Positions 40,583 through 52,213 of a stretch of 64,000 nt of DNA are shown in pieces. Each line of letters opens with the position of its first letter. The stretch's first letter is position 1. The DNA is taken from positions 1-64,000 of the forward strand of contig NZ_JAQTQD010000003.1 in assembly GCF_028712425.1 (NCBI RefSeq), in the 5' to 3' direction. A program made the translations under genes and the position numbers. The notes beneath the pieces are model-generated. The model was not told the DNA's origin. It made no database searches and worked only from the letters and a program-made list of their open reading frames with translations. Source of the stretch: Methanoregula sp. (GTDB lineage: Archaea; Halobacteriota; Methanomicrobia; Methanomicrobiales; Methanospirillaceae).

Positions 40583-41221
40583 TTACGCGTTCCTGACCGC
40601 GGAAAATTCCATTATCGCGGTTACCGGGTCTTTTGCCTCATAAATCGCCCGCCCCACGATGATGCCGTCAACGAGCTTCGCGATGGTGGCTGCGTCCCCC
40701 CCCTGGGCACCCACGCCCGGGGAGAGTATCTTCCGTTTGCCAACGATTTCGCGCAGGATTTTTGTGCGCTCCGGGCGCGTTGCCGGGGCGATGATCCCAT
40801 CCGCGCCACACTCTACGGCAAGCGCGGCGATCTTCTCGGCGGTCCCGCCATGGAAGAACGCAGTCGCGCCCGGGTGGCTCATCTCCGCAACCACGAAACA
40901 CGCGCCCCCGTAGTCCGCGGCAACACCTACGCACGCCTGGATTGCGTCGGCGCCGGTGAACCCGTGGCAGATGATGGACGAGAAGCCGGCATCGAAGACC
41001 TGCTCCGCGATGAGCCGGTTCGTGTTGGGGATATCGGCGACCTTGAAGTCCGCGATGAGAGGCTTGTCCAGCTCCTCGAGCTCTGCTGCAATCGAGAGGC
41101 CGCTTGCGAGGATGAGGGGGTACCCGAGCTTGATGGCGTCGAGATGCGGGGCGCAGGCATTTGCGATCTTGATCGCCTGTTTCTTTTCGGTTACGTCCAG
41201 CGCAAGGATCAGTTCGGTCAT
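40583..41221 (-). CDS. pyrF: Orotidine 5'-phosphate decarboxylase
   Basis: Converts OMP to UMP, the last step of pyrimidine synthesis. The 212-residue TIM barrel starts ELILALDVTEKKQA, has the catalytic DFKVADIPNT (about 58-67; Asp-x-Lys-x-x-Asp), the SHPGATAF loop, and GVGAQGG with phosphate-binding IIVGRAIYEA near the end. Length is normal. Its ATG overlaps the dys stop by 4 bp, so pyrimidine synthesis and hypusine formation are transcribed together. Confidence 0.96.
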   Translation of the reverse strand: MTELILALDVTEKKQAIKIANACAPHLDAIKLGYPLILASGLSIAAELEELDKPLIADFKVADIPNTNRLIAEQVFDAGFSSIICHGFTGADAIQACVGVAADYGGACFVVAEMSHPGATAFFHGGTAEKIAALAVECGADGIIAPATRPERTKILREIVGKRKILSPGVGAQGGDAATIAKLVDGIIVGRAIYEAKDPVTAIMEFSAVRNA

Positions 41222-42153
41222 TTCGCGAGCCTCTCCATCACCGCGGCCGTCAGCACCGGGAGGGTGATCGTTGCGTCGCCGTACACGGTCACGGCCTGGG
41301 CGTCTTCCGTGATCTTGCCCCAGGACCGGGCTTCGTCCAGCGTTGCGCCCGAGAGCCCGCCGAGGTCAGGCCGGTCGCCCGTAAGCTGGATCGCGTAGCG
41401 GAAACCGTTCGGGGTCATCAGCATGCTCTGGAGGATGAAGTTCTTGGGCACACCGCCGCCCACGAGCATGGCGCCGGCCTTTGTTGCCGTAAAGCACCGG
41501 TCCATCAGCGACTGCATGTCGGCAAAGGCGTCCACGGTGATTTTGTTGGTCTGCGAGAATAGCCAGTACTGGAGGCCGATCATCGAGTCCTGCACCGCAG
41601 GGTTGTACACCGGGACCTTGTTCCTCGCTGCCGTGTGGAGGATACCGGATTTTGTATGGTTCCCGATGTGTTCCAGCAGGCCCGAGATGGAGATGGTGGA
41701 TTTTGGTTCGAGTTCGGAGAAGACACCCTGCATGAACTCCTCGAAGTGTTCGAACGCGTCGTTGGGGAGGTAGACATCGTAGATCCGGTTGATCTCGTCG
41801 TGCCGGAGCTCGATGTCGTTACAGAACGCAGTGCCGTGGAAGTGGTGGCAGCCGATGGCCTCGATGATGTCGTGCGTGAGGTTGGCGCCGGTCGAGACAA
41901 GCACGTCGATATGACCGGCCCTGATGAGATCGGAGACGATCCCGCCCATGCCCGCGGGGACCATTGCCCCGGCAAGCCCGAAGAACTTCGTGGCCTCCCG
42001 GTCTCTCAGCATCTGCTCCCAGATATCCGCGGCGCGGGCAAGCGATCCGCCGTTGTAGGCGCCGGCTTCTCCCATCGCCATCACCAGTTCGTTCACCGTC
42101 ATCTTCGGTTTCACGTGGAGCTGGTTTACCGGCATCTCGCAGGGTTGTGTCAT
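41218..42153 (-). CDS. dys: Deoxyhypusine synthase
   Basis: Transfers an aminobutyl group from spermidine to a lysine of translation factor aIF5A. The 311-residue protein has SGANLTHD (about 91-98, NAD-binding), HFHGTAFCND, YWLFSQTNKI and the catalytic-lysine motif GGGVPKNFILQS (about 238-249). Length is typical for archaea. It begins the dys-pyrF operon, leftward from a spacer (42154-42284) that also holds the promoter for the divergent coiled-coil operon. Confidence 0.95.
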   Translation of the reverse strand: MTQPCEMPVNQLHVKPKMTVNELVMAMGEAGAYNGGSLARAADIWEQMLRDREATKFFGLAGAMVPAGMGGIVSDLIRAGHIDVLVSTGANLTHDIIEAIGCHHFHGTAFCNDIELRHDEINRIYDVYLPNDAFEHFEEFMQGVFSELEPKSTISISGLLEHIGNHTKSGILHTAARNKVPVYNPAVQDSMIGLQYWLFSQTNKITVDAFADMQSLMDRCFTATKAGAMLVGGGVPKNFILQSMLMTPNGFRYAIQLTGDRPDLGGLSGATLDEARSWGKITEDAQAVTVYGDATITLPVLTAAVMERLAK

Positions 42154-42284
42154 GGTATTTTTGCACTTCCGCTTGTTGCCGGATATTTGGCGTTCCGCAC
42201 AGATAACTGTGTTTCAGGACCGTGCGGCGGGGATAAGCCGGGCTTTGGGGAAGGTATTTACCCTTTCACTGTCGTTTTTCCTCT

Positions 42285-42758
42285 ATGCAGGAGATCCGGT
42301 TATCCTTACGAAAACGGGCGTTCCCGAGCGAAGGCCGGGCGCGCCTCAATGCAGCCCACCTCCCGGAGCTGGGAATCACCGAAGGGGGACAGGTGGACCT
42401 TGTCAACGAGGCGACCGGTGCCAGCGTGACCGTCACGATCGTTGCCGACACTCTCGTCCTCGAGGGGCAGGTGCGCGTGAGCGCAGAAGACCTCACGGTG
42501 CTCGGCCTCTCCGAGAACGAAGCCGTCCTTGTCAGGAAGTCCCCCCCGCTGGACGAGAAGATCAAAAAAGCCGCGGGGGAAGCTGGTGAGGTTGCCCGGA
42601 AAGGCGTTGACTCGCTGGACCGTGCGCTGACAAAGGCTGCCGGCGATGTGAAGGCGGGAGCCGGAAAGGCTACAGAAACGATCGGCACCGCGGCGAAGAA
42701 GACCGCAGACGGTGTCAGGGACGTTGCCCGGAAAGTTTCCGGCAAGGACGATCTCTGA
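42285..42758 (+). CDS. Beta-barrel N-domain plus amphipathic repeat protein
   Basis: First of six co-directional genes. Of 157 residues, 1-90 resemble half of the CDC48/VAT-type or AbrB-like double-psi barrel: SEGRARLNAAHLPELGITEGGQVDLVNEATGASVTVTIVADTLV. Residues 90-157 are a Lys/Ala/Gly-rich amphipathic tract (KKAAGEAGEVARKG, DRALTKAAGDVKAG, KATETIGTAAKKTADGV), similar to apolipoprotein/YtxH-like or LEA repeats that lie on membranes or nucleic acids. No catalytic motif. The gene ends 37 bp before the next; function unknown. Confidence 0.65.
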   Translation: MQEIRLSLRKRAFPSEGRARLNAAHLPELGITEGGQVDLVNEATGASVTVTIVADTLVLEGQVRVSAEDLTVLGLSENEAVLVRKSPPLDEKIKKAAGEAGEVARKGVDSLDRALTKAAGDVKAGAGKATETIGTAAKKTADGVRDVARKVSGKDDL

Positions 42759-42795
42759 ATCCCCCATCATCGCATCATAAAAATCTGGTGAAACC

Positions 42796-43179
42796 ATGGC
42801 ATCCGAAATGATCATCAACGACACGATGCTTGCAGGACTGATCGTTGTCCTCGGCATGGTGGTTGTCTACCTTATCATCCGCGAGATACGGATCATGAAG
42901 ACCTCCAACCGGGCGCTGGAACTGGACCTGGAGAAGGACAAGCTTGCGCTCCTCCAGCAGCACGAGGCAAAGAAGGCGTTCCCGTTCACCCGGCTCTCCC
43001 CGGAACAAACGGCGCAGATCCGGCAGGTGCAGGAGGACAATGCCGCAATCGAGACAACGGTCTTTGCAAAAGAGAAACTGCTCGAGGCCCGGCTGGCGCG
43101 GCTGGAGAACATCGTGAAGGCAAAGAAGCTCGACACCCTCCTCACCAATGCGGAGGAGCAGGAGAAGAAGGTGAAGTGA
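42796..43179 (+). CDS. N-terminally anchored coiled-coil protein
   Basis: The 127-residue protein has one membrane helix (about 10-32, TMLAGLIVVLGMVVVYLII) and then a highly charged helix to the end, with heptad-like LELDLEKDKLALLQQHEAKKA and LLEARLARLENIVKAKKL. The cytoplasmic side is likely, with the coiled coil projecting. The next gene starts 1 bp after its stop. It is the membrane anchor of the putative system; no known family recognised. Confidence 0.65.
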   Translation: MASEMIINDTMLAGLIVVLGMVVVYLIIREIRIMKTSNRALELDLEKDKLALLQQHEAKKAFPFTRLSPEQTAQIRQVQEDNAAIETTVFAKEKLLEARLARLENIVKAKKLDTLLTNAEEQEKKVK

Positions 43180-43180
43180 G

Positions 43181-43498
43181 ATGAACCCGACCGTATACCA
43201 CGCACCGGAACAGGACCTGACGAGCGGATCGTTCTGGGACGAGCTTTCGCAGGTCCCTGCAACCATCGGCTCCCGGCTCCCGACGCTTGACCGGTCGCTT
43301 GACGCCTACTTCGACCGGCACTTTGCAGCCATCATCGAGGAATGGGACCTCGTGACCGGAAGCGATCTCAAAAACCTCGAAAACCGGCTGGAGCGGGTGA
43401 GCAGCGAGATCACCCGGTTATACGAAGGAAAGATGGCCCTTGAGGCGCGGGCACAGGATCTCGACCGCCTCATATCATCCCTGGAGCGGTCGAAATGA
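43181..43498 (+). CDS. Small coiled-coil protein with DR-xx-EEWDL module (copy 1)
   Basis: The 105-residue protein has about 35 N-terminal residues, then LDRSLDAYFDRHFAAIIEEWDLVTGSDL and a coiled coil (LENRLERVSSEITRLYEGKMALEARAQDLDRLISSLERSK). The YxDRxF-x-EEWxL-x-L-coil pattern recurs in the next two genes, so it is a shared domain of this operon. Stop overlaps the next start by 4 bp (ATGA). The role is unknown; regular spacing and identical architecture point to a hetero-oligomeric helical assembly. Confidence 0.65.
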   Translation: MNPTVYHAPEQDLTSGSFWDELSQVPATIGSRLPTLDRSLDAYFDRHFAAIIEEWDLVTGSDLKNLENRLERVSSEITRLYEGKMALEARAQDLDRLISSLERSK

Positions 43499-43716
43499 TC
43501 GGGATGGATTCCTACCTCAACGCCTACGTGGACCGGCGGATGAAGTACCTTGTCGAAGAGTACGACCTCACCACGCAGGGCGAGCTTGCGGATTTCACGG
43601 TCCGGCTGGCGTCAATCGAGCGGGAGATCCCAAAACTCGCATCCTTTGAAAAGGAAGCAGCAGACAAACTTTCGGCGCTCGAAGCCCGGGCAGCAGCGCT
43701 GAAGGGGAGGCGGTGA
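43495..43716 (+). CDS. Small coiled-coil protein with DR-xx-EEYDL module (copy 2)
   Basis: 73 residues: MDSYLNAYVDRRMKYLVEEYDLTTQGELADF followed by a coiled coil (TVRLASIEREIPKLASFEKEAADKLSALEARAAALKG). It is the minimal version of the module in the flanking genes: helix with YxDRRM, Glu-Glu-aromatic-Asp-Leu, then Leu at regular spacing. ATG at 43495 overlaps the previous stop by 4 bp. Product is soluble and probably pairs with its paralogues. Confidence 0.65.
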   Translation: MIGMDSYLNAYVDRRMKYLVEEYDLTTQGELADFTVRLASIEREIPKLASFEKEAADKLSALEARAAALKGRR

Positions 43717-43717
43717 C

Positions 43718-44071
43718 ATGGACCTTTTGACGTTCCTTATCCTCGTTCTCATCCTTGTCGTGGTCCTCTTCCTCGTGTACTGGTTCTTCCACGGAGCAAA
43801 GGGCAACATCGCGCTCACCCGCCCGGTGGAGAGCCGGGTGGACGAGTACCTGGACCGGAGGTTCCATGAGATGATCGCGGAATGGGAACTGGTCCCCGGC
43901 CCGCAGCTCCGGCGGTTCACGGAGGAGCGTTCCCGCGATCTTGCACAGGAGGAGGCCCGGCTCGGTGAGCTGAAACAGTTCGAATCCGGTATGCGGACAA
44001 CGCTCTCATCCCTGGAGGCACGGCTTGACACTCTGGAAAAAGAACTCGAAGGCAGCGCAGCAAAAAAGTAG
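43718..44071 (+). CDS. Membrane-anchored coiled-coil protein with DR-xx-EW module (copy 3)
   Basis: The 117-residue protein combines an N-terminal membrane helix (DLLTFLILVLILVVVLFLVYWFF, about 2-24) with the shared module RVDEYLDRRFHEMIAEWELVPGPQLRRF and a coiled coil (SRDLAQEEARLGELKQFESGMRTTLSSLEARLDTLEKELE). It thus merges features of the anchor gene and the DR-EEW proteins. It starts 1 bp after the previous stop and overlaps the following gene by 47 bp. Confidence 0.65.
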   Translation: MDLLTFLILVLILVVVLFLVYWFFHGAKGNIALTRPVESRVDEYLDRRFHEMIAEWELVPGPQLRRFTEERSRDLAQEEARLGELKQFESGMRTTLSSLEARLDTLEKELEGSAAKK

Positions 44072-44330
44072 CGCACCCTCCGAAAAATTCCGCGAGCTGA
44101 AAAAAGAGATCGCGGTGATGCGCAAGCAGGGGGAGCCCCAGGCAAAGGACCCCCGCACGTTCTCCCAGTACCTCTGCGATCTCTGTGCAACGCCGCACCC
44201 GGTCTCGGGCCTCCGGCAGTGCGTGCTCTGCGGGCGCTGGGCTTGTGATGCCTGCTGGAAAGACGAGTACTATACCTGCAAGTCCTGCGCCGGCCTGATC
44301 AGGATCCATTCGCTGATGGGAAAGGAATAA
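44025..44330 (+). CDS. Zinc-finger protein ending the coiled-coil operon
   Basis: 101 residues from a TTG start at 44025 that has GGAGG about 7 nt upstream inside the preceding gene; ATG at 44118 is a shorter alternative. After a basic, Lys-rich N-terminus the C-terminal half carries a FYVE/B-box-like cysteine pattern: CDLC, CVLC, CDAC, CKSC with HP and W in between (LCDLCATPHPVSGLRQCVLCGRW), a two-zinc treble-clef-like domain. It could bind protein partners or lipids and probably works with the coiled-coil products. Not recognised as a named family. Confidence 0.6.
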   Translation: MTLWKKNSKAAQQKSSAPSEKFRELKKEIAVMRKQGEPQAKDPRTFSQYLCDLCATPHPVSGLRQCVLCGRWACDACWKDEYYTCKSCAGLIRIHSLMGKE

Positions 44331-45455: not shown

Positions 45456-47795
45456 ATGGCTGAACTGGCGGCATCGGACAGAACGGTACAGGCCCCCCTC
45501 TCCCCTGCCGGGGCAGCACTGCTCTTGGCCCTTGAGTCCTCCCGCGATCGCATTGCCCGCCGGCTTGTCAGCGACGTGCACGCTATCACCGATCAGGATC
45601 TTAACTACCTCACCGTCTCGTCCCTCGCGCAGCAACTCTTCCTGAAAGCCGGCCAGGCGTGCGGGTTTATTGAGCAGGGCACGCTTACGGCTCTCGCGGG
45701 ATGCGACAGGATCGCGCAACGCATGGGACGTGCGTGTTCCGATGCCGGGCTTGACCCGGAACAATTCTTTGAAACCGGGCCTGCGGGCTCCCGTGCGCTG
45801 CCCGCGGTCCATGACGAACCGCTCCGGTTCGCGATCGAAATGCTGGACAGTGCGGATCTCCCTGCACCGGTAACGGGACTCCCGCTGGAAGATCTTGCAG
45901 CGGTTCTCGACCATTTTGTTGCCACGCGCCTGCAGGCAGGAGAGGGGTATCGTGTTGCCCGGGCCGGGAAATCCGCGCTGCTCTATACCGGGACAGTCGA
46001 TGTTCCCCGGCAGGAAGTTATTGAACAGGTTGTAGCAATTGCCGTCCGCGAAGGAAGCGGGAGCGCCCCGGCAGAGATGCGGGAGGTCCGGGTCCTTGAT
46101 ATGGCCTGCGGGGCCGGGCTCTTCCTTCTTGCATTGTTTCGCTGTCTTGTACGGAAACAACAGGGCCGGAAAAACCGGGCGCTGACAGGGCCGGAGCTGC
46201 TGGAGGTCCTCTGCACATCCGTCTTCGGCACGGATATCGACCCGGAGTCCGTGAGTGCAGCCCGCCTTGTTCTCCTGCTTGCGTTCATTGAGGAATGCCG
46301 GAAGTCCGGCCCTGCGGCTCCTGGCCCGGATCAGGTCGCGGCAGCCTGCACTGCTCTCACGCAAACAATCCGGTGCGGCAATGCCCTGATTGCGCCGGAT
46401 TATTTTACCGGCAAGCCGGTATTCCCGTTCAATGCGGAAGAACGCCGGCGCGTGAACGCGTTTGACTGGCAGGCAGCCTTCCCGGTGATTATGACCGATG
46501 GCAGGTTTGATGCGGTGATCGGTGCCCCGCCTCCGTACCGGCCGTTCGCTGTGAAGGCACGCGAGGAATACTTCCAGACGCACTACGACTCGTACGCGGT
46601 TTCCGCCGGCCTGTACGGGTACTTTATCGAACGCGGGCTCTCGCTCCTCCGGCCCGGAGGCACGGTTGCCTTCCTTGTGCCCGGGACATTTTTTCGCTCG
46701 GAACCTGCACGGCCGCTCCGGCGCCTGCTTCTCTCGCGGCAGATCGAACGGATAGCCTTCACTGGCAGGACGCGGGCATTACCGGAAGGTGACATCCCCG
46801 TGTATCTCCTTACGCTGAAAAACCAGCCGGTATTTGAGCCTTTTGTGGTCTCTCCGGATTTTTTTTCGGGCCGGAACGATTTTTCGCTCGACCAGCGTTC
46901 GCTGGATGACGGCGGCTGGAGGCTGGAGGACACCCGCACGGAAAAGATCCTTGACAAGATCCGGGCACAGGGTACGCTGCTTGAAGAGTATGTCATGGGA
47001 GAGATCGGGACGGGGACGCATGCTGTAGAGAACAATCCTCTGGTCGTGGACCGGGAAACACGGAACCGGCTGACAAAAAATGCATGGTGGGCCCGGCGGT
47101 TTTTCATACCGCTGCTCTGCCCGGCTGATATCCGGCGCTATGTTCCGGAAAAACCGTCGCGGTTCGTGATCACCGGGACGGGCAGCAGGAAGATCCGGAA
47201 CTGCCGGGCACTGGCAGAGTATCTTAAGAGGGGCCAGGATCGTGCGGAGACAGACTCCAGTCGGGGAACTCCCCATGATGGGGAAGGACGTGCAGGGGAA
47301 AATATTCAGGAACATTTCCTTCCGGAAAAACCGATGCGAAAAATTATTTTTGCGCTTCATCAGCACAGCCCGGCATTCAGTCTCGATCAGAACGGTACGT
47401 ACGCCATGGCAAGTACGGTCTCTGCAATTCTCCGGAATGATCCGTATCTTTTGGCTATCCTGAACTCAACACCCGGCCGGTTCATCATCCGGCACATCTG
47501 CCCGTACACGGATCGCGGGTACCACCTGAGCCCGGCAGCGCTCGGAAAATTTCCGGTCATCGTGCCGGACTTTGAAAAATTTTATGAGAAAAAATTTTTT
47601 GAAAAGATCACGCTGCTGGTCTCGCAAATGATCTCGCTATGTGAGTATCTCCCGCAAACGAAGACCGACCAGGAGCGCCGGCTCGTGCAGCAGGAGATCG
47701 ATGCAACGGACATCCGGATCGATGCGCTGGTGTACGAGCTGTACGGGCTGACACCGGAGGAGATCCAGGTAATTGAGGGGAGTTCACCGTCGTAA
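45456..47795 (+). CDS. N6-adenine-type DNA methylase (Eco57I-like) with altered motif IV
   Basis: The 779-residue protein has motif I VLDMACGAGLF (213-223), GTDIDPESVSAARL (257-270), DAVIGAPPPY (352-361), a long target-recognition part and a C-terminal TaqI-like domain (LLAILNSTPGRFIIRH, KFPVIVPDFEKFYEKKF). Catalytic motif IV in this class is NPPY; here the Asn is replaced (GAPPPY), so catalysis is doubtful. The arrangement recalls Type IIG/Eco57I or BREX PglX proteins but no nuclease domain is seen and the length is only 779. Preceded by an AT-rich promoter; stands alone. Confidence 0.8.
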   Translation: MAELAASDRTVQAPLSPAGAALLLALESSRDRIARRLVSDVHAITDQDLNYLTVSSLAQQLFLKAGQACGFIEQGTLTALAGCDRIAQRMGRACSDAGLDPEQFFETGPAGSRALPAVHDEPLRFAIEMLDSADLPAPVTGLPLEDLAAVLDHFVATRLQAGEGYRVARAGKSALLYTGTVDVPRQEVIEQVVAIAVREGSGSAPAEMREVRVLDMACGAGLFLLALFRCLVRKQQGRKNRALTGPELLEVLCTSVFGTDIDPESVSAARLVLLLAFIEECRKSGPAAPGPDQVAAACTALTQTIRCGNALIAPDYFTGKPVFPFNAEERRRVNAFDWQAAFPVIMTDGRFDAVIGAPPPYRPFAVKAREEYFQTHYDSYAVSAGLYGYFIERGLSLLRPGGTVAFLVPGTFFRSEPARPLRRLLLSRQIERIAFTGRTRALPEGDIPVYLLTLKNQPVFEPFVVSPDFFSGRNDFSLDQRSLDDGGWRLEDTRTEKILDKIRAQGTLLEEYVMGEIGTGTHAVENNPLVVDRETRNRLTKNAWWARRFFIPLLCPADIRRYVPEKPSRFVITGTGSRKIRNCRALAEYLKRGQDRAETDSSRGTPHDGEGRAGENIQEHFLPEKPMRKIIFALHQHSPAFSLDQNGTYAMASTVSAILRNDPYLLAILNSTPGRFIIRHICPYTDRGYHLSPAALGKFPVIVPDFEKFYEKKFFEKITLLVSQMISLCEYLPQTKTDQERRLVQQEIDATDIRIDALVYELYGLTPEEIQVIEGSSPS

Positions 47796-48685: not shown

Positions 48686-51600
48686 TTATTTTGCGCCCGG
48701 GAAGATCCGCCAGTTCTCCCGTGGCACCGTGATCTCGAACCGGGCCCCGACGCCCACGTAGCCGGTTTCGCGGATCGTGATGCCGGTGGTTGCCAGAATC
48801 TCCCGGGCAAGGAAAAGACCAAAGCCGGTGTGCTTACCGAACCCTTTCTCAAAAATTTTTTCCTTCTCTTCCGGTACAACACCAATCCCGTCGTCTTCAA
48901 CATAGATGACAAGGCCGTCCGGCGCCCGCTCGCACCGGACCCCGATCGTTGTCACGTGTTCCCCGTGCCGGATCGCGTTGTCGAACAGGTTAAAGAAGAC
49001 ACGCTCGATCATCGGGTCGGCGAAGACCTCGATGGCATGGCAGGTCTTGGAGAAGGAGACCTCGGGCCGTGCGGTCCTCTCGACAATCTCTTCGAGCCGG
49101 AACCACGCGGGGGTCTTCTCACCCAGTTCCTGGTAGGCCTTCGTGAACTCGATCTGGCCGGTAATCGTGTCAGTGGCGGTCTCGATCTTCTGCAGGAAAT
49201 CGAGGACAACCGGGTCCGGGTTGCTCAGTTCGGCCAGCTGGGCGTATCCCCGCAACGCAGTCAGCTGGTTTGCGACATCGTGGCGCGTGATGCTGTTCAA
49301 GAGACTGAGCTTCTTGTTCGTGTTCTCGATGGCCTGCTCCATGGCCTTGCGTTCCGTGACGTCCCGGATGAGCCCCTCGGTACCGATAAGTCGTCCATCC
49401 TCTCCCCGTATTGCCTGCAAATTGATCGATGCCCAGAATGTTGTGCTGTCCATGCGCAGCATCATCTCAACAAAATCGGTTACCTTTCCGTCCTTCCCGA
49501 GTCTTGTCAGGAGCTCCTGGCGCTTTTCAGGATTGGTATAGACGACACTGGCCGGGATCCCGCGCATTTCATCAGGAGACGAATACCCGAACATGCGGGC
49601 TGCCGACGGGTTCACCATCGCGATCTTCCCCTCGCTGTCCGTACGGAGGTAGGCATCCTGCATGGTGTCGAGGATCCGGCGGTACTCCGTCTCGCTCTCG
49701 CGACGCGCCCGTTCTGCCTTTTTCCGGTCGGAAATATCCCAGACGAAAACCAGTGCCGCGTTCTTTCCCTGGTACTCGAAGGGGACCGCGGAGACCTCGA
49801 CTTCGATCTCTGCCCCGTCAAGCCTGACATAGACCTCCTCGAGTGTTGATGCTGTAACATGGTCGTCATAGAGGTCATTCACCCGGTTTTTTATGGCATC
49901 ATGGAATTTTTTGTGGACCCGGTCGAGGAACGGTGTGCCAACGAGCTGGTCGCCAGAGGTTGCGCCAAAGAGTTGGATCGCAGCCGGGTTCAGGTACTGG
50001 AACTTCCAGTCTGCACTGATGTAGATTGCTTCCGGCGCCCCCTCGATGACACGGCGGAATGTCTCCTCGCTCTCCTTTAAGGCAGCCTCCGCTAACTTCC
50101 GATCCGTGATGTCGGTCATCAGGCTGAGTATGCCCGGCTTTCCCTGCCAGGAGATTCCCGTTGTGGAGTTCGAGACCCAGACAGGCCGGCCTCCGGCACC
50201 GGTGATCCGGAAATCGTACGTCTGCGGTGCGGACTCGCCGGCAATCCGTTTCGCGTGGAGGTCTCTGAGGAGATCCCGGTCTTCGGGCCAGATGAAGTCG
50301 ATGAACATCTGGCCTTCGATTGCCGATACCGGCTTTCCCAGCATTTCAGCACCTCTCCGGTTGACAAAGACGATCTTCCAGTCCTGCACAATCGCGATGG
50401 ACTCGTGGGCATTCTCGACGAGGGTTCGGTATTTCTCCTCGCTCTCGCGAAGTTCCTGCTCTGCCATCATCCTGCGCGTGATATCGCGGTCCGCTCCCCG
50501 GAATCCGGTCAGGGTGCCGTCACTGCTAAAGACCGGGATGCTGTTACTCTCCAGGTAGTGCCAGGACCCGTTCTTATCCCGCCACCTCACCACGACATTG
50601 TGCCACCCTTTCTTGTCGCGGATCGATGACCGGAGCAGGTCAGTTACCATCTCCTGATCGTCAGGGTGCATAAGATCAAACAGGTTCATCTGCCGGATCT
50701 CCTCCATGGAATAGCCTATGATCGTGGTAATTACAGGATTCGAAAAGGTATGGTGCCCTTCAAGGTCCATCTCCCAGATCCATTCGGTCGTGGTCTCCAC
50801 AATGTTCCGGAACCGTTCTTCGCTCTCTCGGAGAGCCTCCTGGCTTCGCTTGTACTCGGTGATGTCCTCGTACGTTCCGAGAACGCCGACAACGTTACCT
50901 TCCCGGTCGCGGAGCGGGACTTTACTTGTCCGCAGCCAGGCTTTGCTGCCATCCGGCCTGACCAGGGGCTCTTCGTAATTGATCCACCCCTGCCCGCTCT
51001 CCATCACCTGGCGGTCATCAGCACGGTAGAGCTCCGCGATCTCTGCTGAGGTATAATCAAAATCAGTTTTCCCCACTATGTCAGCCGGGTTCGAAAAGCC
51101 GGCATCGCGGGCATTCTGCCGGTTGCACCCAAGGAAAACCGAGTTTTTATCTTTCCAGAAAACGCGCTGGGGGATGGTGTCAAGGACGGTCTGGAGCATC
51201 TGCTGGGAATTAAAGAGCGCCTCCTCAGTTCTCTTCCGCTGGGTGATATCCCGCATGAGTACCATGACTGACGGGTAGCCCTGGAAGCTGATCGGCTTTA
51301 CCGCAATCTCCACGGTCAGTTCCTCGCCGTCAACTGCGATAATGCCCTGCTCCTGGCGGTGGAAGCGTATCCCTTCCTCAGCCATCTTCCTGACAGATTC
51401 CACGGTCCGTTCATGATACTCCGGGTTGACAAACGTGAGGATGTCTTTCCCGATAATATCTCCCGGCACTTTTGCCTTAATCATCCGGACGGCTTCCGGG
51501 TTTGCGTACACGTTCTTCCCGTTGCGATGAACGACAATGGCAACCGGGGCAAGCTCGATGAGCGACCGGTAGTTTTCCTCGCTCTCCCTGAGTGCTTCTT

Positions 51601-52213
51601 CTGCCTTCTTCTGGATGGATATGTCCCGGAATGTGACGTACGTTGCGGGTCTTCCCTGCCACGTGCAGGGTGTTGTCGCAACATCGACATGCATGATGCT
51701 GCCGTCAGCCCGCACGAACCGTTCGTGGATGTGTTCCAGTGACTGCTGTGGAGAGACACGGATCCGCTCCTCAATCAGCGCACGGTCATCGGGATGGATA
51801 ACTTCAATCGCCGGTTTTCCGATGAGACCTTCCGGATTGGACAGCCCCATCATCCGGACTCCGGTCTGGTTGACAAAGACAAGCTTCCCGTCCTGGTGGA
51901 TGGCAATCCCGTCGAACGATGAATCTACCAGCGTGCGGTACCGCTCCTCGCTCTCGGCCAGGGTCTGCTCGGTGCGTTTGCGGTCGGAGATGTCCCTGAC
52001 CGAGACAAGCACGGTCAGCTGCCCCTCGAGATCGAATACCGAGATCAGCGTATCGGCAGGGAAGGTGCTGCCGTCTTTTCTCTTGTGGATCCACTCGAAG
52101 TGTTCGCTCCCTGTCTTTTGGATCCCGCGGAACAGCTCGACTGCGGCTTCCTGTGAGTTGCGCCCGTCCGGCTGGGTTGGGGGAAAGATGTCCTTTGGCT
52201 GAAGGCCGACCAT
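48686..52213 (-). CDS. Multi-PAS histidine kinase, 3' part of an interrupted gene
   Basis: From the first ATG after the stop at 52508 the product is 1175 residues: about eight PAS domains in tandem, each ending in a DIT/DIS-x-RK-coil ([45 protein letters not shown], and so on), then a HisKA-like dimer helix with TRHDVANQL (His is the phosphorylation site) and a HATPase_c domain ([28 protein letters not shown]). Upstream in the same frame, bases 52214-52507 are open and encode a PAS/coiled-coil link, so this is continuous with the gene at 52508-53344 apart from one TAG. It senses unknown signals. Confidence 0.85.

Follow-up and report, generated by a model that had tools for sequence, protein, structure and literature searches.

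The window, a stretch of 64,000 nucleotides from a contig of Methanoregula sp. (NZ_JAQTQD010000003.1), contains a compact group of six open reading frames at positions 42285-44330, all on the plus strand (Table 1). The sequence-only reading of this DNA had described them as an operon with gaps of 37, 1, -4, 1 and -47 bases between consecutive genes, and this layout is borne out.

Table 1. Genes of the operon and its candidate promoter (positions within the window).
Feature	Position	Strand	Description
Promoter	42250..42260	+	Candidate archaeal promoter of the BRE/TATA type, gaaggTATTTA; TATA element at positions -30 to -25 relative to the ATG of gene 1
Gene 1	42285..42758	+	157 aa; predicted double-psi beta-barrel of the Cdc48-N type at residues 1-88, then an amphipathic tail rich in Lys and Ala
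Gene 2	42796..43179	+	127 aa; one predicted membrane helix near the N-terminus (charge bias N-out/C-in), then a coiled coil on the cytoplasmic side
Gene 3	43181..43498	+	105 aa; predicted soluble; D-x-YFDR-(x)n-EEW-x-L module followed by coiled coil
Gene 4	43495..43716	+	73 aa; minimal module alone, YxDRRM-(x)n-EEY-x-L and coiled coil; overlaps gene 3 by ATGA
Gene 5	43718..44071	+	117 aa; predicted N-terminal membrane helix, RPVESRVDEYLDRRF-(x)n-EW-x-L module and coiled coil
Gene 6	44025..44330	+	101 aa from the probable start TTG 44025; LWKK N-terminus and predicted eight-Cys binuclear treble-clef domain, PF14445 Prok-RING_2

In an ungapped profile of 59 upstream regions, nearly every locus has a TATA box at about -31 to -25 relative to the start of gene 1; purines precede it, and the position of the ATG is fixed. 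The presence of the promoter at gene 1 indicates that the six genes are one transcription unit starting there. The spacing of the TATA box implies a transcript that would begin at, or very near, the gene-1 ATG and thus be leaderless or nearly leaderless. No locus has more than 10 bases between consecutive genes from gene 2 to gene 5, and the commonest spacing is a 4-base overlap both between genes 3 and 4 (40 of 60) and between genes 4 and 5 (47 of 65). Such tight spacing in all loci is the pattern expected for subunits of one assembly. Gene 6 probably starts at TTG 44025, as the sequence-only reading had it, because both the LWK N-terminus and the overlap with gene 5, which is mostly 32, 47 or 50 bases long, are conserved in relatives. 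ATG 44118 was dropped as a candidate start, since the TTG start, the N-terminus of the form [ML]-T/R-LWK and the fixed overlap recur in relatives. The ratio dN/dS is 0.07-0.32 across the six genes in comparisons with three relatives (for gene 6, one relative gave no value), which corresponds to purifying selection.

The genes adjoining the operon differ from genus to genus. In the window, the deoxyhypusine synthase gene (41218-42153, minus strand; PF01916, E 2.5e-101) lies upstream and is divergent from the operon, an arrangement seen only in close relatives. Two adjacent genes were considered as operon members and rejected: the deoxyhypusine synthase gene is conserved upstream only among these close relatives, the downstream cheW gene is convergent, and the flanks are different elsewhere. 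Just downstream, at 45456-47795 on the plus strand, there is a gene for a restriction-modification protein of 779 aa, which contains a methylase domain of the Eco57I type (E 5e-23) and matches TaqI_C weakly; a related protein is encoded near the operon in four relatives (loci L077, L082, L083 and L086). Further on, the 1175 aa product of 48686-52213 (minus strand) appears by eye to contain many PAS-type repeats and a histidine-kinase-like end.

The distribution of the operon was analyzed using the profiles of its last two genes. PF14445, the family of gene 6, is present in 90 of 232 genomes of the class, and the gene 5 profile matches 88 of 231. Both genes occur in 87 genomes, gene 6 alone in three, of which at least one is cut by a contig end, and gene 5 alone in one. 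In the neighbourhoods that were read, the order of genes 1-6 is constant wherever the contig is long enough, with the exception of a few second copies. The complete set was found in Methanoregula, Methanolinea, Methanospirillum, Methanogenium and other Methanomicrobiales. Gene 5 is confined to this order among the 394 genomes of the phylum searched, and outside it gene 6 has only weak matches. A peptide-pattern scan of 84,980 species yielded matches only in Methanomicrobiales, with one strict pattern that distant relatives could escape. The sequence-only reading had made its case depend on synteny, and the genes are indeed conserved as a set across Methanomicrobiales. Within the order the operon is patchy: many relatives lack it, among them some members of the genus Methanoregula itself.

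The patchy presence within genera would fit a mobile defence or virus-derived cluster. However, PADLOC produced no matches for any of the six proteins, PHROGs produced none that were meaningful, and no match was found in 2.9 million viral contigs. Moreover, proteins of one genus mostly cluster together in the tree, and housekeeping genes are among the flanks in each genus. An origin of this kind is extremely unlikely.

Genes 1-5 occur without gene 6 in four loci. Three of these, L129, L130 and L135, are related and form a single branch in the protein tree; the fourth is L123. L130 shares an assembly, JAAYWH01, with the complete six-gene locus L136. In view of such second copies, gene 6 is an accessory to a five-gene core, and it cannot be essential to every version of the system.

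The sequence-only reading had noted a DR-EEW/EEY module shared by genes 3, 4 and 5, and had proposed that the helical subunits are paralogous. The similarity of the three genes is beyond chance. Profile-profile comparison of the ortholog sets gave a probability of 98.6% and E 5e-16 for genes 3 and 4, 98.4% and E 8e-15 for genes 4 and 5, and 97.8% and E 1e-12 for genes 3 and 5, and these can be considered true paralogues. However, gene 2 does not belong here, as its match to the module set reaches only 55.7% over 21 coiled-coil columns, and its candidacy as a fourth paralogue was ruled out. Genes 1 and 6 did not match the module set in the same comparison. The DR-EEW module has no match above the cut-off in Pfam or NCBIfam, and none in PHROGs or PADLOC. 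Gene 6, which already belongs to a named Pfam family, is not wholly uncharacterised. Pfam matches of genes 2-5 to phasin, BLOC1_2, Borealin and TRPM are all below the cut-off, look like coiled-coil noise and were discarded. A search of PDB profiles with gene 5 returned coiled-coil matches only.

The N-terminal membrane helices reported for genes 2 and 5 are present as one strong hydrophobic segment in all orthologs tested. Lysine and arginine are almost absent on the N-terminal side of the helix, and number about 4 (gene 2) and about 3 (gene 5) on average on the C-terminal side. Given this skew, the C-terminal parts should be cytoplasmic, and both proteins should be single-span membrane anchors in the N-out/C-in orientation.

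The barrel-like N-terminal domain ascribed to gene 1 is seen both in the AlphaFold2 model and in profiles. Residues 1-88 are modelled confidently, whereas the pLDDT of the tail is below 50. The confident part shows the order E-E-H-E twice at high pLDDT, that is, a two-fold beta-beta-alpha-beta double-psi barrel. In a Foldseek search (probability 1.00, with about 1.3 A over 83 residues for most matches), this model matched a plant CDC48 N-domain with E 4.5e-8. Many p97/Cdc48 N-domains and designed DPBB proteins matched with E of about 1e-6 or better and deviations of about 1.1-2.0 A, and most Cdc48/p97 N-domains superimposed with 1.2-1.5 A over 83-89 residues. The scores against PF02359 (CDC48_N) are 17.4 bits for the protein of the window and 32.7 for the best ortholog scanned, both below the cut-off of 35.1. 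On the strength of the model, residues 1-88 are assigned to Cdc48-N-type double-psi barrels. The tail gives weak apolipoprotein-like matches, which would be consistent with a surface helix folding on membranes.

A barrel of this type, together with the zinc domain of gene 6, could act as a membrane protein quality-control adaptor that passes membrane substrates to a Cdc48/VAT-type unfoldase and the proteasome without ubiquitin. Indeed, Cdc48/p97 N-domains are among the very best structural matches of gene 1, and the genome has two genes for CDC48_N proteins that are full-length, at about 800 aa. However, gene 1 has the barrel half of the N-domain only; the other subdomain, which shapes the adaptor groove, is absent. 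Besides, double-psi barrels have many other roles, and no protease or ATPase recurs among the neighbours in the loci that were read. Thus we consider the adaptor function unlikely.

In Methanospirillum and several lineages of Methanoregulaceae, gene 1 has an additional C-terminal domain, TrkA_C (RCK_C, PF02080), which scores above the cut-off with E down to 4e-12. The sequence-only reading had therefore under-read this gene in two respects: its barrel is of the Cdc48-N type, and a TrkA_C domain is added in sister genera. The domain was confirmed by Pfam in loci L044, L048, L054, L055, L056, L091, L094, L099, L118 and L123. Gene 1 is long (235-275 aa) in the last five of these and in L106, L096, L097, L104, L119 and L121, where length and alignment suggest that TrkA_C is present as well. 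In gene 1 of the window the Pfam scan found no TrkA_C. Lineages with TrkA_C and the TrkA_C-less Methanoregula fall on the same side of the tree, which makes it plausible that the domain was gained and then lost in the genus of the window. Natural variants thus occur with and without the zinc gene, and with and without the TrkA_C domain.

The Cys-rich zinc domain noted in gene 6 is supported by both model and profiles. The protein matches PF14445 (Prok-RING_2) with E 7.3e-38 and 129 bits, against a cut-off of 22.4, over positions 1-56 of the 56-position profile. Eight near-invariant cysteines form four CxxC pairs with the spacing CxxC-x11-CxxC-x4-CxxC-x7-CxxC. The model has a pLDDT of 88.8; in Foldseek it matches PHD, FYVE and RING domains, all weakly (best E 0.17), the top ones by TM-score being FYVE domains (up to 0.54, also weak). 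A search of PDB profiles with gene 6 gave no significant match. As modelled, the domain is no closer to the RING of ubiquitin ligases than to the treble clefs of FYVE and PHD domains. The Prok-RING_2 family probably goes back to the work of Burroughs, Iyer and Aravind (2011, Mol Biosyst 7:2261); our literature search found no mention of PF14445.

The Pfam name of the family (E 7e-38) raises the possibility of a ubiquitin-like ligase complex, in which gene 6 would serve as the RING E3 and cooperate with an E2 at the membrane, as an archaeal counterpart of ERAD. Gene 6 has a leucine second after the first cysteine (CDLC) and a tryptophan near the third cysteine pair, and both fit an E2 contact surface. 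However, in the ortholog alignment the last cysteine is followed by Ala, Asn, Ser or a similar residue and then an invariant Gly, and the linchpin Arg or Lys past the last zinc ligand was not found. The E2 family UQ_con matched none of 150 genomes of the order, which is suggestive rather than proof, as no control genome gave a match either. In addition, the best structural matches by TM-score, all of them weak, are FYVE domains and not RINGs, and gene 6 is absent from some second copies. A ligase is very unlikely on these grounds. Given the weak structural matches, the lack of an E2 match and the missing linchpin, we treat gene 6 as a putative binding domain rather than a ligase.

Several families of membrane proteins recur near the operon. 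The commonest is a DUF308/HdeD-type membrane protein found at 18 loci, mostly downstream and on the same strand, in more than one family and several genera; it is missing in the window and in many lineages. In the 10 genomes tested there are 3-20 DUF308 matches per genome, often several per protein. With so few copies, the recurrence near the operon looks above chance, although related loci are not independent. FUSC-type membrane proteins adjoin the operon in some lineages, and a ClC-like channel was observed by eye near it in some. The occurrence of these three types near the operon is the reason to think of a role in membrane or ion stress. However, this basis is thin, and the connection of HdeD itself with stress is a loose one, which counts against such a role; it is a guess from neighbours.

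One known ligand of RCK_C domains elsewhere is c-di-AMP. In favour of the stress role, 147 of 150 genomes from the order have a member of the c-di-AMP synthase family. Since it is nearly universal whether the operon is present or not, a link between c-di-AMP and the TrkA_C domain is possible, but it is not specifically indicated. The DAC-domain (c-di-AMP synthase) frames are often about 560-630 aa long in genera of the window's family, and 270-300 aa in other families.

The best-supported explanation is the one given by the sequence-only reading, once corrected: an assembly of helical proteins associated with the membrane, together with a zinc-domain protein. The conserved set, the paralogy of genes 3-5, the two anchors and the zinc-domain partner agree with it. 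The corrections are that the paralogues number three and exclude gene 2, that a Cdc48-type barrel is a second head, that the zinc domain has a named family, and that gene 6 can be missing. In particular, the products of the operon may form a heteromeric complex that sits at the membrane and faces the cytoplasm. A single complex is suggested by the near-perfect co-occurrence of genes 5 and 6 (87 shared of 88 and 90), the shared promoter and the changing flanks. Genes 2 and 5 would anchor it through their single membrane helices. Genes 3 and 4, as paralogues of gene 5, would join through the DEYLDRRF-EEW-L helix and the coiled coil, producing a mixed helical bundle. Gene 1 would contribute its Cdc48-N-type double-psi barrel, kept near the membrane by the amphipathic tail, and in some genera its TrkA_C domain might bind a small ligand. 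Finally, gene 6 would contribute the RING/FYVE-like zinc head. Such a complex could be a regulatory scaffold with two heads for recruitment or sensing, which recruits partners to the membrane upon membrane or ion stress. This proposal as a whole is tentative, and we give it somewhat less than an even chance, the stress response being its weakest part.

Another possibility is that the proteins constitute a structural scaffold of the cell envelope or cytoskeleton, involved in positioning, sheath or pole organisation and not in stress sensing. Small coiled-coil paralogues that carry membrane anchors are a typical feature of scaffolds, and confinement to one archaeal order would suit a lineage-specific trait of cell biology. 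However, the operon occurs both in Methanospirillum, which is sheathed, and in unsheathed genera, and many relatives lack it, even within the genus of the window. A ligand-type domain on gene 1 also suggests regulation. A purely structural role is improbable. The FtsZ-like membrane-remodelling operons (PMC2875224) were also considered, and no link to the genes of the operon was seen.

The regulatory scaffold could also be read more broadly, as a new membrane machine specific to Methanomicrobiales. It would combine the Cdc48-type barrel, the ligand-binding TrkA_C in some genera and the RING/FYVE-like zinc head on paralogous membrane-anchored helices, and would parallel or foreshadow, without ubiquitin, the platforms that recruit proteins to membranes in eukaryotes. 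This broader reading is doubtful. The operon itself is a real and largely undescribed cellular system, to judge from its components and the constancy with which they are linked. In the organism of the window, only one of the six genes reaches the cut-off of a named family, yet several families of methanogens have kept the set whole. If the products do form one complex, it would be a case of RING-like and Cdc48-N-type domains cooperating at the membrane of an archaeon in which no ubiquitin system is evident. Such a pairing, if true, bears on the use of both domains before eukaryotes. The operon is well suited for experiment, since its six proteins are small, its boundaries clear and its promoter defined, and natural variants exist.

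Individual parts of the operon have counterparts in known families. Gene 6 is a full-length member of the prokaryotic RING family Prok-RING_2, an entry that covers one gene of six. Gene 1 shares with the N-domain of Cdc48, p97 and VAT (PF02359), and with other double-psi beta-barrels, the two-repeat barrel and the region of the G-R-x-R signature. Unlike Cdc48, p97 and VAT, it lacks the ATPase domain and the second N subdomain, and has instead an amphipathic helical tail and, in some genera, TrkA_C. The latter differs from the TrkA_C/RCK_C regulators in that it is attached neither to a transporter nor to a Rossmann RCK_N domain. As for the whole system, the Psp and Lia membrane-stress systems combine small membrane-anchored coiled-coil partners with an amphipathic protein at the membrane surface. 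Pfam and NCBIfam scans of all six proteins gave no PspA-, PspB- or PspC-type match, and no sequence family in common was found. Nevertheless, by analogy, the operon may follow a working plan similar to that of Psp and Lia.
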